Assembly (NCBI GenBank): GCA_001899235.1
Contig: MKVR01000024.1
Location: 1 to 34,791, forward strand
DNA length: 34,791 bases
Origin: Nitrosospira sp. 56-18
Lineage (GTDB): Bacteria > Pseudomonadota > Gammaproteobacteria > Burkholderiales > Nitrosomonadaceae
Reading direction: 5' to 3'
Shown: positions 1,257 to 31,421 of the stretch, piece by piece
How the letters are laid out: each line of letters begins with the position of its first letter
How positions within the stretch are numbered: the first letter of the stretch is position 1
Notes under the pieces: model-generated
What the model was told of the DNA's origin: nothing
Seen by the model: only the letters and a program-made list of their open reading frames with translations
The model's database searches: none
Position numbers and translations under genes: made by a program

Positions 1257-2438
1257 CTAGGTGGCTGCCAGACCTCTCGCCAGATCCGCCTGGATATCCT
1301 TCGCTGCTTCCAGCCCCACTGCGATGCGCAGCAGACCGTCCGTAATTCCGGCTGCGTCCCGGCTTTCCTGGCTGATGCGGGCATGGGTAGTGGTGGCGGG
1401 ATGCGTCAAGGTGCTCTTGGTATCGCCCAGATTGGCGGTAATCGAAATCATGCGGACGGAATCCACCACCCGCCAGGCTGCATCCTTTCCATTCTTCAAT
1501 TCGAAGGACACAATGCCCCCGCCAGTTTTCTGCTGGCGCCGCGCGAGATCGTATTGTGGATGCGACACCAGGCCGGGGTAATGAACTTTTGCCACGCCTG
1601 GCTGCGATTCCAGCCAGCGTGCAATCTCCAGCGCGTTGCTGGAATGCGCCTCCATGCGAATCTTCAGCGTTTCCATGCCTTTCAATATCACCCAGGCATT
1701 GAAGGGGCTCAGGCTCGGCCCGGCAGTACGCAAGAAACCGAATATCCCCTGCTCCATCACCAGGTCCCGGCTTCCCAGCACAGCCCCGCCCAACACCCTT
1801 CCCTGGCCTTCCAGATATTTTGTCGCGGAATGGATTACCAGATCCGCACCCAGTTGCAGCGGCCTTTGCAGCGCCGGGGAACAAAAGCAGTTGTCCACCG
1901 CGAGCCAGGCGCCCGCCTTTTTTGCAACGGAAGCCAGCGCGCCAATATCCGAAATTTCGGTGAGCGGATTGGATGGCGTTTCCACGAATAATAATTTCGT
2001 GCCGGGCCTCATCGCCGCTTCCCATTGGGAAATATCCGTAGCGGAAACAAATGTCGTCTCGATGTTGAAGCGCTTGAGAATATTGGTGAAGAGATTCACG
2101 GTAGCGCCGAACAGGCTGCGCGATGCGATGATATGGTCGCCGGCGGAGAGCAGGCCCATCGCACACGCAAGAATTGCCGACATGCCTGAAGAAGTGGCCA
2201 CGCACGCTTCAGCACCCTCGAGCGCGGCCAGGCGTTCTTCGAAAGCGGTAACCGTGGGATTGGTGAAGCGCGAATAGATATTTCCGGGTTCCGTGCCGGA
2301 AAAACGCGCTGCGGCCTGGGCGGCATTCTCGAATACGAAGCTCGAAGTCAGGTACAACGCTTCCGCATGCTCATTGAACTGGCTGCGATGAATACCCGTG
2401 TGCAGCGCCAGGGTCTCCAGCTCGAAATCGTCAGACAT
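1257..2438 (-). CDS. metZ: O-succinylhomoserine sulfhydrylase
   Basis: A PLP-dependent Cys/Met metabolism enzyme of 393 residues that converts O-succinylhomoserine and sulfide to homocysteine, the direct-sulfhydrylation route to methionine. The PLP lysine lies in SATKYLEGQG (Lys207), with the upstream YSRFTNPT stretch and the ETPSNP motif near 153-158 typical of the family. The metZ-type product is favoured over cystathionine gamma-synthase because of the purF-metZ gene order, known in many beta- and gammaproteobacteria, and the overall match; the two enzymes are close relatives. The start has a strong AAGGAG site. It does not simply follow purF: it has its own promoter and a SAM-II-type leader that should switch it off when S-adenosylmethionine is plentiful. 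Confidence 0.92.
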   Translation of the reverse strand: MSDDFELETLALHTGIHRSQFNEHAEALYLTSSFVFENAAQAAARFSGTEPGNIYSRFTNPTVTAFEERLAALEGAEACVATSSGMSAILACAMGLLSAGDHIIASRSLFGATVNLFTNILKRFNIETTFVSATDISQWEAAMRPGTKLLFVETPSNPLTEISDIGALASVAKKAGAWLAVDNCFCSPALQRPLQLGADLVIHSATKYLEGQGRVLGGAVLGSRDLVMEQGIFGFLRTAGPSLSPFNAWVILKGMETLKIRMEAHSSNALEIARWLESQPGVAKVHYPGLVSHPQYDLARRQQKTGGGIVSFELKNGKDAAWRVVDSVRMISITANLGDTKSTLTHPATTTHARISQESRDAAGITDGLLRIAVGLEAAKDIQADLARGLAAT

Positions 2439-2460
2439 CAGGATCTCCTTCCCAATAAAA

Positions 2461-2491
2461 AAACCCGTCCAGCATTTGCTAAAACGGGTTT
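2461..2491 (-). terminator. intrinsic terminator in metZ leader (attenuator)
   Basis: Read on the minus strand, AAACCCGT (2491-2484) pairs with ACGGGTTT (2468-2461), and the stem runs into seven T residues. It lies between the aptamer and the metZ ribosome site, so it would stop transcription before the gene. Its 5' arm overlaps a second, mutually exclusive hairpin (2478-2502), the arrangement expected of an expression platform. Confidence 0.8.
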
Positions 2492-2502
2492 CCCGCTTTA
2501 GC
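2478..2502 (-). promoter_or_regulatory. antiterminator hairpin in metZ leader
   Basis: On the minus strand GCTAAAGCGGG (2502-2492) can pair with CCCGTTTTAGC (2488-2478), an 11-bp stem with one G-U pair and a very short loop. Forming it removes the 5' arm of the terminator. Its 5' arm contains the conserved GCUAAA of the SAM-II pseudoknot, so ligand binding should sequester it and leave the terminator free to form. The pairing is seen; the switching logic is inferred. Confidence 0.65.
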
Positions 2503-2547
2503 CGAATTTATAACGCGCCCGCAAGCTGAATATCAAATCGGCGCAAG
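2492..2547 (-). promoter_or_regulatory. SAM-II riboswitch aptamer upstream of metZ
   Basis: The leader matches the SAM-II (metA) motif in order. P1 forms between TGCGC (2545-2541) and GCGCG (2518-2514). The conserved GATTTGA loop follows the first arm, then GCTTGC, then TATAAAT, then the pseudoknot arm GGCTAAA ending in GGG. The family is known to bind S-adenosylmethionine and repress methionine genes in proteobacteria. The predicted transcription start lies at the first base of P1, so the mRNA would begin with the aptamer. The assignment rests on motif recall, not on a covariance search. Confidence 0.85.
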
Positions 2548-2551
2548 ATCG

Positions 2552-2580
2552 AAACTACACTTCCCCATTCTTTTTGTCAA
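2552..2580 (-). promoter_or_regulatory. sigma70-type promoter of metZ
   Basis: On the minus strand a perfect -35 TTGACA (2580-2575) is followed after 17 bases by TAGTTT (2557-2552). Transcription would start near 2545, at the 5' end of the SAM-II aptamer, giving a leader of about 105 bases before the metZ ATG. Confidence 0.7.
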
Positions 2581-2718
2581 ATTGCTGCGATATGGCTTCC
2601 CGGAAAATTTCTGTGCCGCCGGCAATCATGCACAAAGCGAAGCAGCGATCGAAAGGATCTTCGCATGATGCCCGCAAGGCAACCGCCTCAAACGGGGAGT
2701 GCGGAAGCCATTGTTCAC

Positions 2719-2747
2719 ATCAGCAGAGCTTGTTCAGTGCTTCCTTA
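2719..2747 (+). repeat. possible decayed end of the MITE-like repeat
   Basis: TTGTTCAGTGCTTCCTTAA (2729-2747) resembles the outward end of the MITE-like family (TTGTTCAGCGCTTCCCTAA), and a few bases further inward also agree (CAGCAGAGC against CAGCGAGGA). It abuts and includes the purF stop codon. Only about 25 bases can be aligned, so chance resemblance is possible. Confidence 0.35.
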
Positions 2748-4265
2748 ATCCACCGCCGCCAGGTTCAAATCCAGCTGGCTGCTGGCGCCAGTGCTCGTCA
2801 ATGGCATGCCACTGCCCCGCTGCGCCTCCAGTATGGCAAGATACTCTTCCGTGATATCACCGGTGATATAGCTGCCGTCGAAGCATGAAGTTTCATAATG
2901 GGAAATCGAAGGATTGAGCCTGGAGACATCTTTCACCAGCGCATCGAGATCCTGGTAAACCAGGTAATCCGCACCGATTTCCCGGCAGATTTCATCATCA
3001 TCCCTGCCAGTGGCAATGAGCTCATGGCGTGTAGGCATGTCTATCCCGTAAACGTTGGGAAACCGCACCGGCGGCGCAGCGGATGCGAAATACACCTTGC
3101 TCGCCCCCGCGCCTTGCGCCATCTGGACAATTTCCCGACTGGTCGTGCCGCGCACGATTGAATCATCCACCAGCAACACATTCTTTCCGCGAAATTCGAC
3201 GCTCATCGCATTGAGTTTCTGGCGAACGGATTTACGCCGCTGCTGCTGTCCCGGCATGATGAAAGTCCGTCCTATATACCGGTTCTTGACAAAACCTTCC
3301 CGAAAGCTGACACCCAGGCGATTGGCAAGCTGCAAGGCGCTAGGCCGGCTGGAATCAGGGATGGGGATGACCACATCGATATCCAGATGCCGCATGGTCC
3401 TGTTGATCTTGTCGGCCAGGCTCTCACCCATGTTGAGCCGTGTTTCGTATACGGAAATACCGTCCATTACCGAGTCTGGGCGAGCCATGTAAACGAACTC
3501 GAAGATGCAGGGGTTATGCACAGGTGCGGCAGCGCATTGCTTGTTGTAAAAATTACCTTTCTCGTCGATGAAAATCGCCTCCCCTGGAGCGACATCGCGT
3601 ATCAGATGGAATCCCAGCGTGTCGAGCGCGACGCTTTCGGACGCCACCAGGTACTCTGTCCCGAACTCGTTCTCCGCGCGGCCGAATACCAGTGGTCGAA
3701 TGCCATGGGGGTCGCGAAAAGCCAGCAAACCATAGCCGGCTATCATGGCCACTACTGCATAAGCGCCCCGGCAGCGGCGGTGCACCCCCGAAACCGCATC
3801 GAATATGGCGGCTGGATCGAGATGATAGTTTTTCGTACTCCTCTGCAGCTCATGAGCCAGCACATTGAGCAAGACTTCCGAATCGGAATTGGTATTGACG
3901 TGACGCAAATCTTCTCGGAACAATTCCTGGTTGAGCTGGACGGCGTTCGTGAGATTGCCGTTGTGGCCCAGAACGATCCCGAACGGAGAATTTACGTAAA
4001 ACGGCTGTGCTTCGGCTGGGGATTCGGACGATCCGGCAGTTGGGTAGCGTACATGTCCAATGCCCATGTTCCCGACCATCGAACGCATGTTGCGGGTGCG
4101 AAAAACATCCCGCACCAAGCCGTTTCCCTTGTGCATGTGGAACCTGTTATGCTGCGCGGTAACGATACCGGCGGCGTCCTGCCCCCGATGCTGGAGCACC
4201 AGCAGGCCGTCGTATAGCAACTGGTTGACGGGAGTTTGCGCAACGAGGCCAAGAATTCCGCACAT
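2745..4265 (-). CDS. purF: amidophosphoribosyltransferase
   Basis: The first committed enzyme of purine synthesis: it transfers the amide nitrogen of glutamine to PRPP to give phosphoribosylamine. The protein starts MCGILG, so Cys2 becomes the N-terminal nucleophile of the Ntn glutaminase domain after methionine removal. The C-terminal phosphoribosyltransferase domain carries [10 protein letters not shown] (327-336) and the PRPP loop [14 protein letters not shown] (363-376). The 506-residue length and the lack of a cysteine-ligated Fe-S pattern fit the E. coli type. It lies 121 bases after cvpA, as in many proteobacteria, with a GGGA ribosome site. Its stop codon coincides with a possible decayed repeat end. 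Confidence 0.96.
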
Positions 4266-31344: not shown

Positions 31345-31421
31345 TGGCGCGCCCGGCAGGATTCGAACCCACGACCCCTTGGTTCGTAGCCAAGTACTCT
31401 ATCCAACTGAGCTACGGGCGC
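31345..31421 (-). tRNA. tRNA-Arg (anticodon ACG)
   Basis: The 77-nt cloverleaf is complete. The acceptor stem GCGCCCG pairs with CGGGCGC, followed by discriminator G and an encoded CCA. The D-arm region is AGCTCAGTTGGATAGAGT. The anticodon stem CTTGG/CCAAG encloses CTACGAA, giving anticodon ACG (read as ICG after deamination). The T arm is GTGGGTTCGAATCCTGC. It reads arginine CGU, CGC and CGA codons. A decayed second copy lies about 590 bases downstream. Confidence 0.97.

Follow-up and report, generated by a model that had tools for sequence, protein, structure and literature searches.

A predicted SAM-II termination switch upstream of metZ in Nitrosospira and its probable identity with the metXZ element and the Bp2_287 sRNA

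Introduction

SAM-II riboswitches have been described in alpha-, beta- and gammaproteobacteria (PMC2704228). According to Corbino et al. (2005; PMC1273637), who include Bordetella bronchiseptica in a figure, the promoter usually lies just ahead of P1 and many copies have terminators; Barrick and Breaker (2007; PMC2258182) stated that SAM-II in alpha- and betaproteobacteria seems mostly to go with terminators. Closest to the present case is the SAM-II switch of Sinorhizobium metZ, which is predicted to terminate transcription and in S. meliloti yields an sRNA of ~100 nt whose level is higher under a high-SAM growth condition (Scheuer et al., 2022; PMC9373788). In the metA leader of S. meliloti, a translational SAM-II switch is followed by a terminator that is not predicted to be SAM-responsive (PMC9373788). 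SAM-V and SAM-II long loops are related pseudoknot aptamers (PMC2704228, PMC2864571).

Two further RNAs have been described ahead of methionine genes under other names. Leyn et al. (2014; PMC4239095) found matches to the Rfam SAM_alpha model only in Rhizobiales and Rhodobacterales, and presented a new element, metXZ, in 35 betaproteobacterial genomes, in which a pseudoknot is followed by a terminator; metZ of Nitrosospira multiformis is included. Khoo et al. (2012; PMC3521395) located the sRNA candidate Bp2_Cand287 ahead of methionine genes, its neighbours including purF, metZ and metX; its Rfam family is RF02424. In the table of a 2024 review, BTH_s31 and Bp2_287 are other names of RIT77, and Bp2_Cand287_SIPHT, BTH_s31 and RIT77 are equated (PMC10987360). 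The review describes RIT77 as upregulated when nematodes are infected and when biofilms grow; nowhere does its available text mention a riboswitch (PMC10987360). A B. thailandensis table enters BTH_s31 with '>>' and BTH_II0686 (PMC4035088). In a literature search over titles and the starts of abstracts, mostly of open papers, none of the matches listed links the metXZ or Bp2_287 names to SAM-II.

Here we analyzed a 34,791-nt stretch of DNA from Nitrosospira sp. 56-18 (contig MKVR01000024.1; hereafter the window), in which a SAM-II attenuator had been predicted in front of metZ. Since betaproteobacterial SAM-II elements with terminators (2007) and the Sinorhizobium metZ switch (2022) have been published, the leader belongs to a known kind. 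For the window alone, the result would be an ordinary feedback switch, so far unannotated, by which an ammonia oxidiser controls methionine synthesis.

Leader architecture

On the minus strand, the interval between purF (2745-4265), whose product scores above the cut-off of a curated PurF model, and metZ contains a promoter, a SAM-II aptamer, an antiterminator, a terminator and a ribosome site, in that order (Table 1). The closest named relatives of the MetZ protein, 88-91% identical, are from Nitrosospira and Nitrosovibrio. When the coordinates were re-read by script, the aptamer, promoter, antiterminator and terminator of the original prediction were all present in the sequence. Its placement of every element within 2461-2580 holds for the promoter, aptamer and antiterminator, and fails for the ribosome site; the start of metZ also falls outside this interval. 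The promoter, described there as visible, has a full -35 box and a 17-nt spacer, but its weak -10 box was missed by a consensus promoter/terminator scanner, which reported neither a promoter nor a terminator at the leader. In our reading, the poor -10 box and a bulge in the terminator stem account for this. Judging from the position of the -10 box, transcription is predicted to start at 2545, on the first base of P1 or next to it. The P2 3' strand is contained in the 5' arm of the antiterminator in the window sequence, and the overlap of these two elements stands as it had been described.

Table 1. Features of the metZ leader region, in window numbering
Feature	Position	Strand	Remarks
-35 box TTGACA	2575..2580	-	6/6 consensus letters
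-10 box TAGTTT	2552..2557	-	3/6 consensus letters, weak; 17-nt spacer; ends 6 nt ahead of P1
P1 5' strand UGCGCC	2540..2545	-	
P2 pseudoknot 5' strand CAGCUUGC	2521..2528	-	
P1 3' strand GGCGCG	2514..2519	-	
Loop L3 UUAUAAAUUCG	2503..2513	-	
P2 pseudoknot 3' strand GCUAAAGCG	2494..2502	-	
Antiterminator hairpin GCUAAAGCGGG/CCCGUUUUAGC	2478..2502	-	2502-2492 with 2488-2478; 11 pairs including one G.U; -15.3 kcal/mol
Intrinsic terminator hairpin and U-tract	2457..2489	-	2489-2478 with 2473-2463; U-tract 2463-2457
RF00521 match, whole model	2481..2554	-	31.8 bits
Ribosome site AAGGAG	2445..2450	-	
metZ, O-succinylhomoserine sulfhydrylase	1257..2438	-	NF006003 705.8 bits (cut-off 522); TIGR01325 584.3 bits (cut-off 510.05)

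Identity of the aptamer

A search with the SAM-II covariance model had been proposed as the test that could refute the prediction. RF00521 matched the leader at a score under the gathering score of 36 (E 1.2e-5 for 4227 families over 301 nt), and in the whole 3.3-Mb genome the leader was found at E 3.0e-5, with the next match at E 3.4. Because the leader scores below 36, a routine Rfam scan of the window yields only a tRNA: no SAM-II match was obtained at gathering level. The tRNA gene (31348-31421, minus strand) is the only Rfam match over cut-off in the window.

Across the window's own genome and 60 relatives, RF00521 matched 42 of 61 genomes at E 0.05, only two of them over the cut-off; 3 of 14 control genomes also matched. 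By genus label, matches at this E value were found in 21/23 genomes of the window's genus, 5/5 of g2, 4/4 of g4 and 0/5 of g3. We also built a model, R1, from 94 betaproteobacterial aptamers, partly from genomes later searched. R1 matched 22 of the 23 genomes of the window's genus, the sole miss being a genome that is 80% complete. In G013, of the same genus, the R1 match was restricted to model positions 2-36, the 5' two thirds of the aptamer (G013:C17:134590-134625). The four named Nitrosomonas metZ loci (L046-L048, L089) had no SAM-II within 400 nt upstream. SAM-II long loops (RF01726) and SAM-V (RF01826) were rejected as candidates for the leader, neither being listed up to E 10 on window positions 2400-2700; neither was listed up to E 1 on the loci of 18 relatives, mostly variants.

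Alpha- and beta-type aptamers recognise each other by model search. Outside the order, R1 matched 55 genomes; RF00521 matched all of the 20 taken from these, 15 of them over its cut-off and with up to 83 bits. The core letters, with at most one substitution, are common to all 13 other-class loci that scored at least 59 bits with RF00521, 11 of which are in the joint alignment described below. Alphaproteobacterial metA and metZ SAM-II (RF00521) and the leader share the core letters, P1, the predicted P2 pseudoknot, the placement next to the promoter, the terminator and the methionine genes. The leader differs in its P1, which is GCGCC/GGCGC and not the CGUGG/CCACG common in high-scoring loci, in its outer P2 and in scoring below the Rfam cut-off. 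With the S. meliloti metZ SAM-II and its RZ sRNA (PMC9373788), it has in common the gene, the predicted mechanism and the expectation of a short terminated RNA; RZ comes from another bacterial class, and its expression was measured.

Covariation of P1

Aptamers were collected by a core pattern of ATTTG-, GCTTGC- and GCTAAA-like motifs with at most one substitution, leaving P1 unconstrained; the near-invariance of the core letters arises because this selection pattern fixed them. Alignment A1 contained 94 of 112 distinct aptamers, leaving out L018, L030, L034 and 15 variants with L1 or L3 insertions. Alignment A2 joined 46 chosen alpha- and beta-type aptamers over P1, L1, P2 and L3.

P1 covaries between beta- and alphaproteobacterial aptamers. 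In A2, P1 sequences differ yet pair, with changes on both sides at four of six pairs: one pair is C-G or U-A (33/13), and another is C-G, G-C or U-A (31/7/2). A one-base P1 insertion is misplaced in a few rows of A2, lowering two pairs. The covariation score of the whole structure was 0.195, compared with a shuffled mean of 0.093, and was reached by none of 500 shuffles and by no slid version. Two of the five A2 measures were no better than shuffles or only mildly better: further pair types numbered 10, compared with 10.9 in shuffles (439/500 reached the observed value), and pairs with a double change numbered five, compared with 3.3 (30/500). A1 alone gave a score of 0.064 versus 0.037 (0/500 shuffles), with 11 further pair types versus 9.8 (74/500). 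P2 pairs were formed in 95.6% (A1) and 87.8% (A2) of cells; P2 is almost without covariation and is uninformative, because the selection pattern fixed the letters of its four invariant inner pairs.

Conservation of the expression platform

From 191 loci, 20 were excluded by name (L002-L008, L073, L074, L093, L154, L157-L159, L162, L166, L170, L173, L183 and L185) and 27 were coreless or ran off the contig end, leaving 144 leaders, 128 of them distinct. Among those excluded, L154, L157, L159, L162, L166, L170, L173 and L183 were weak RF02424 or RF00521 matches without a core near the centre of the retrieved locus sequence, and L158 and L185 had the core only with two mismatches.

A terminator, defined as a hairpin of at most -8 kcal/mol followed by a U-tract within 190 nt, was present in 126 of the 128 distinct leaders, as against 62 of 256 control places taken at random on the sense strand of the same loci, largely in coding DNA. 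Promoters with at least 9 of 12 consensus letters stood ahead of P1 in 89/128 leaders and at 7/640 control places. At the best-scoring promoter site, 92/128 distinct leaders had a -35 box with at least five of six letters, compared with 30/640 control places, and the spacer was 17 nt in 71 of these 92.

The antiterminator left a moderate signal in the relatives that is not universal. Complementarity of the P2 3' strand to the 5' arm and loop of the terminator was above the shuffled median for 114 of 126 leaders. In only 48 of the 126 was it reached by at most 5 of 100 shuffles, in a test that truncates the arm where the loop is short, as in the window's leader. By group, this level was attained in 10/17 leaders of the window's genus, 42/102 leaders with GCUAAAGCG and 3/16 leaders with GCUAAAGAG. 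In L182 and L186, a changed strand, GCUAAAGACGA, stands opposite UCGUUUU. The antiterminator of the original prediction is real in the window and is not a family-wide rule.

Downstream, a methionine or SAM gene was the best match within 1,400 nt in 116 of the 128 distinct leaders. The best downstream genes were metZ in 78 leaders (a count raised by the 56 loci fetched through MetZ, 21 of which are among the 128), metX in 23, metH in 8, a metN-like gene in 5, metK in 2 and an ilvA-like gene in 1, with no assignment in 11. When one representative per met gene was compared with NCBIfam, MetZ, MetX and MetK were over the cut-offs. The MetH representative, truncated where its locus ends, and the MetN-like one, a complete ORF of 245 residues from an internal Met, had the MetH and MetN families, respectively, as best or second match, below cut-off.

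Annotation at the Rfam cut-off leaves most betaproteobacterial copies unmarked. Among 200 genomes of the order, RF00521 matched 92 at E 0.01 and only 36 over the Rfam cut-off; RF00521 or RF02424 matched 108; and R1 at E 0.001 matched 148, training genomes included. In the phylum, R1 matched 73 of 299 genomes, 18 of the 73 lying in the order. The suggestion that a betaproteobacterial copy is a rarity is contradicted by the 148 genomes and by the published betaproteobacterial SAM-II elements with terminators (PMC2258182; Bordetella in PMC1273637).

Model of the switch

Without SAM, GCUAAAGCGGG would pair with CCCGUUUUAGC as soon as the latter emerges, and the antiterminator would sequester the 5' arm of the terminator while the polymerase passes over the U-tract, so that metZ is read. 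With SAM, GCUAAAGCG would be locked in the P2 pseudoknot and the full antiterminator blocked; the terminator would then fold and release an RNA of ~89 nt (2545-2457).

The antiterminator (Table 1) competes for segment 2488-2478 with a terminator of -13.3 kcal/mol as a bare stem and -16.4 kcal/mol with flanking pairs. In folding of the growing RNA without ligand, the probability of the antiterminator fell from 1.00 at nt 81 through 0.72 at nt 83 and 0.28 at nt 85 to 0.02 at nt 89. When P1 was formed and the P2 arms were occupied, the probability of the terminator was 0.80 for the 81-nt transcript and 1.00 for the 83-nt one. When only the eight P2 letters were blocked, the inner GGG/CCC of the antiterminator still paired at 0.80-0.85 up to nt 79. 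In the full leader without ligand, the terminator had a probability of 0.98 at nt 89. Because the terminator wins in the full-length RNA even without ligand, the switch must act during elongation, as the polymerase passes the U-tract; these equilibrium calculations on partial transcripts support the originally predicted switch only as a kinetic one.

Alternative explanations

We consider it very likely that the leader is a SAM-II riboswitch and that, at high SAM, it silences metZ through premature termination of transcription. Aptamer homology, P1 covariation, conservation of the terminator and the overlap of P2 with the antiterminator in the window sequence are computational results; SAM binding, timing and the direction of control are predicted. 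The original interpretation is supported: computation bears out the SAM-II assignment, the position of the promoter, the overlap of P2 with the antiterminator, and the terminator. The same aptamer might instead control metZ mainly through RNA stability or translation, with a constitutive terminator. Folding of the terminator at full length without ligand fits this scheme, and S. meliloti metA provides a precedent in the SAM-unresponsive predicted terminator after its translational switch (PMC9373788). However, the ribosome site lies 43 nt past P2 and downstream of the U-tract, out of reach of direct masking by P2, and an 11-bp antiterminator overlapping P2 is present, with complementarity above chance in the 10 of 17 leaders of the genus mentioned above; we give such a scheme only a slim chance. 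The terminator/antiterminator layout would also suit a methionine attenuator coupled to translation of a leader peptide. We rejected this candidate, as a run of Met codons is absent from every frame of 2545-2439, and the lengths of L1 and L3 differ among relatives by non-multiples of three; it can practically be dismissed.

The remaining alternatives concern the names under which such leaders may have been published. That the leader is a metXZ element separate from SAM-II, differing in ligand or pairing scheme, would agree with the 2014 proposal, in which SAM_alpha was confined to two alphaproteobacterial orders and metXZ, N. multiformis metZ included, was called new (PMC4239095). Yet four named N. 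multiformis metZ loci (L041, L044, L045 and L049) have the exact SAM-II core followed by a terminator, and the core letters and P1/P2 topology are common to alphaproteobacterial-type aptamers far over the Rfam cut-off, which makes a distinct element improbable. Even less probable is that the functional RNA is an antisense sRNA of the plus strand (RF02424, Bp2_287). RF02424 does match the plus strand of the window at 2458-2558, with 24.8 bits against a cut-off of 70. For 45 of its 73 matches at E 0.01 in the 200 genomes of the order, however, the opposite strand has an overlapping RF00521 match, and no RF02424 match overlaps one on its own strand; of the remaining 28, the opposite strand carries the SAM-II core in 21 and lacks it in seven. 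The RF02424 consensus starts in a run of A, complementary to the U-tract of the terminator, which places the proper terminator on the strand of the met gene. The original RT-PCR was oligo(dT)-primed, and the available text describes no strand-specific step (PMC3521395).

The metXZ element and Bp2_287

We think it probable that the metXZ element, Bp2_287 (BTH_s31, RIT77) and the leader of the window are one RNA, a large betaproteobacterial branch of SAM-II that is for the most part unannotated, occurs in about three quarters of the order's genomes sampled and has L3 and L1 variants of its own. The sRNA reported as raised in nematode infection and biofilms would then be a terminated leader that reads out SAM and not a trans-acting regulator. 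The metXZ element and the leader share the genes, one species and the pseudoknot with terminator; metXZ was presented as new and with a different pairing, and its ligand is not named in the available text (PMC4239095). Gene, organism and layout suggest that metXZ is SAM-II, and the 2014 study likely missed this owing to the Rfam cut-off, which only the 36 of 200 genomes given above pass.

Bp2_287 (Bp2_Cand287_SIPHT, BTH_s31, RIT77; RF02424) resembles the leader in its position upstream of metZ or metX, its purF neighbour and its overlap with SAM-II on the opposite strand. Unlike the leader, the family is modelled on the opposite strand, and its only match over cut-off in the 200 genomes (L094, 107.5 bits) has an L3 hairpin; this locus has the core and a P1 of GCGUC/GACGC, and scores 14.6 bits with RF00521. 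Annotation by the Rfam cut-off is probably why a comparative study announced a new element and why sRNA surveys listed the leader as an sRNA without an assigned role. Correcting this would give the metXZ and Bp2_287 entries a ready function, SAM sensing.

Aptamer variants and tandem copies

In five of the 128 leaders (L105, L117, L118, L155 and L161), L3 is ~5-6 nt long instead of ~11 nt. All five stand before a metN-like gene, which follows none of the other assigned leaders (117 assigned in all), and the Rfam SAM-II model listed none of four short-L3 loci at E 1. Short-L3 aptamers before metN-like genes could serve as a test of which parts of the SAM-II fold are needed. L3 carries an insertion, by eye mostly a hairpin, in 12 leaders (L063, L094, L101, L120, L122, L152, L153, L156, L163, L165, L167 and L168), and L1 carries one in three (L160, L164 and L172).

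Tandem SAM-II-like aptamers were seen at two loci of the order and three of another class; two-mismatch matches from a loose scan for tandem copies are probably mostly chance and were not used. Another SAM-II-like aptamer, with a hairpin in L3, follows the first aptamer's terminator in L175 (from 1679) and L176 (from 1702) and precedes a small ORF that matched no NCBIfam family. In the other class (L193, L197 and L198), the first aptamer is of the betaproteobacterial type and the second, with a different P1, follows ~120-170 nt on. L187 (G042) has a degenerate second copy of the 3' part of the aptamer between the terminator and metZ. In L128, a c-di-GMP-I-GGC riboswitch match (1820-1901; 50.9 bits, cut-off 59) lies on the other strand, ~240 nt from the SAM-II match.
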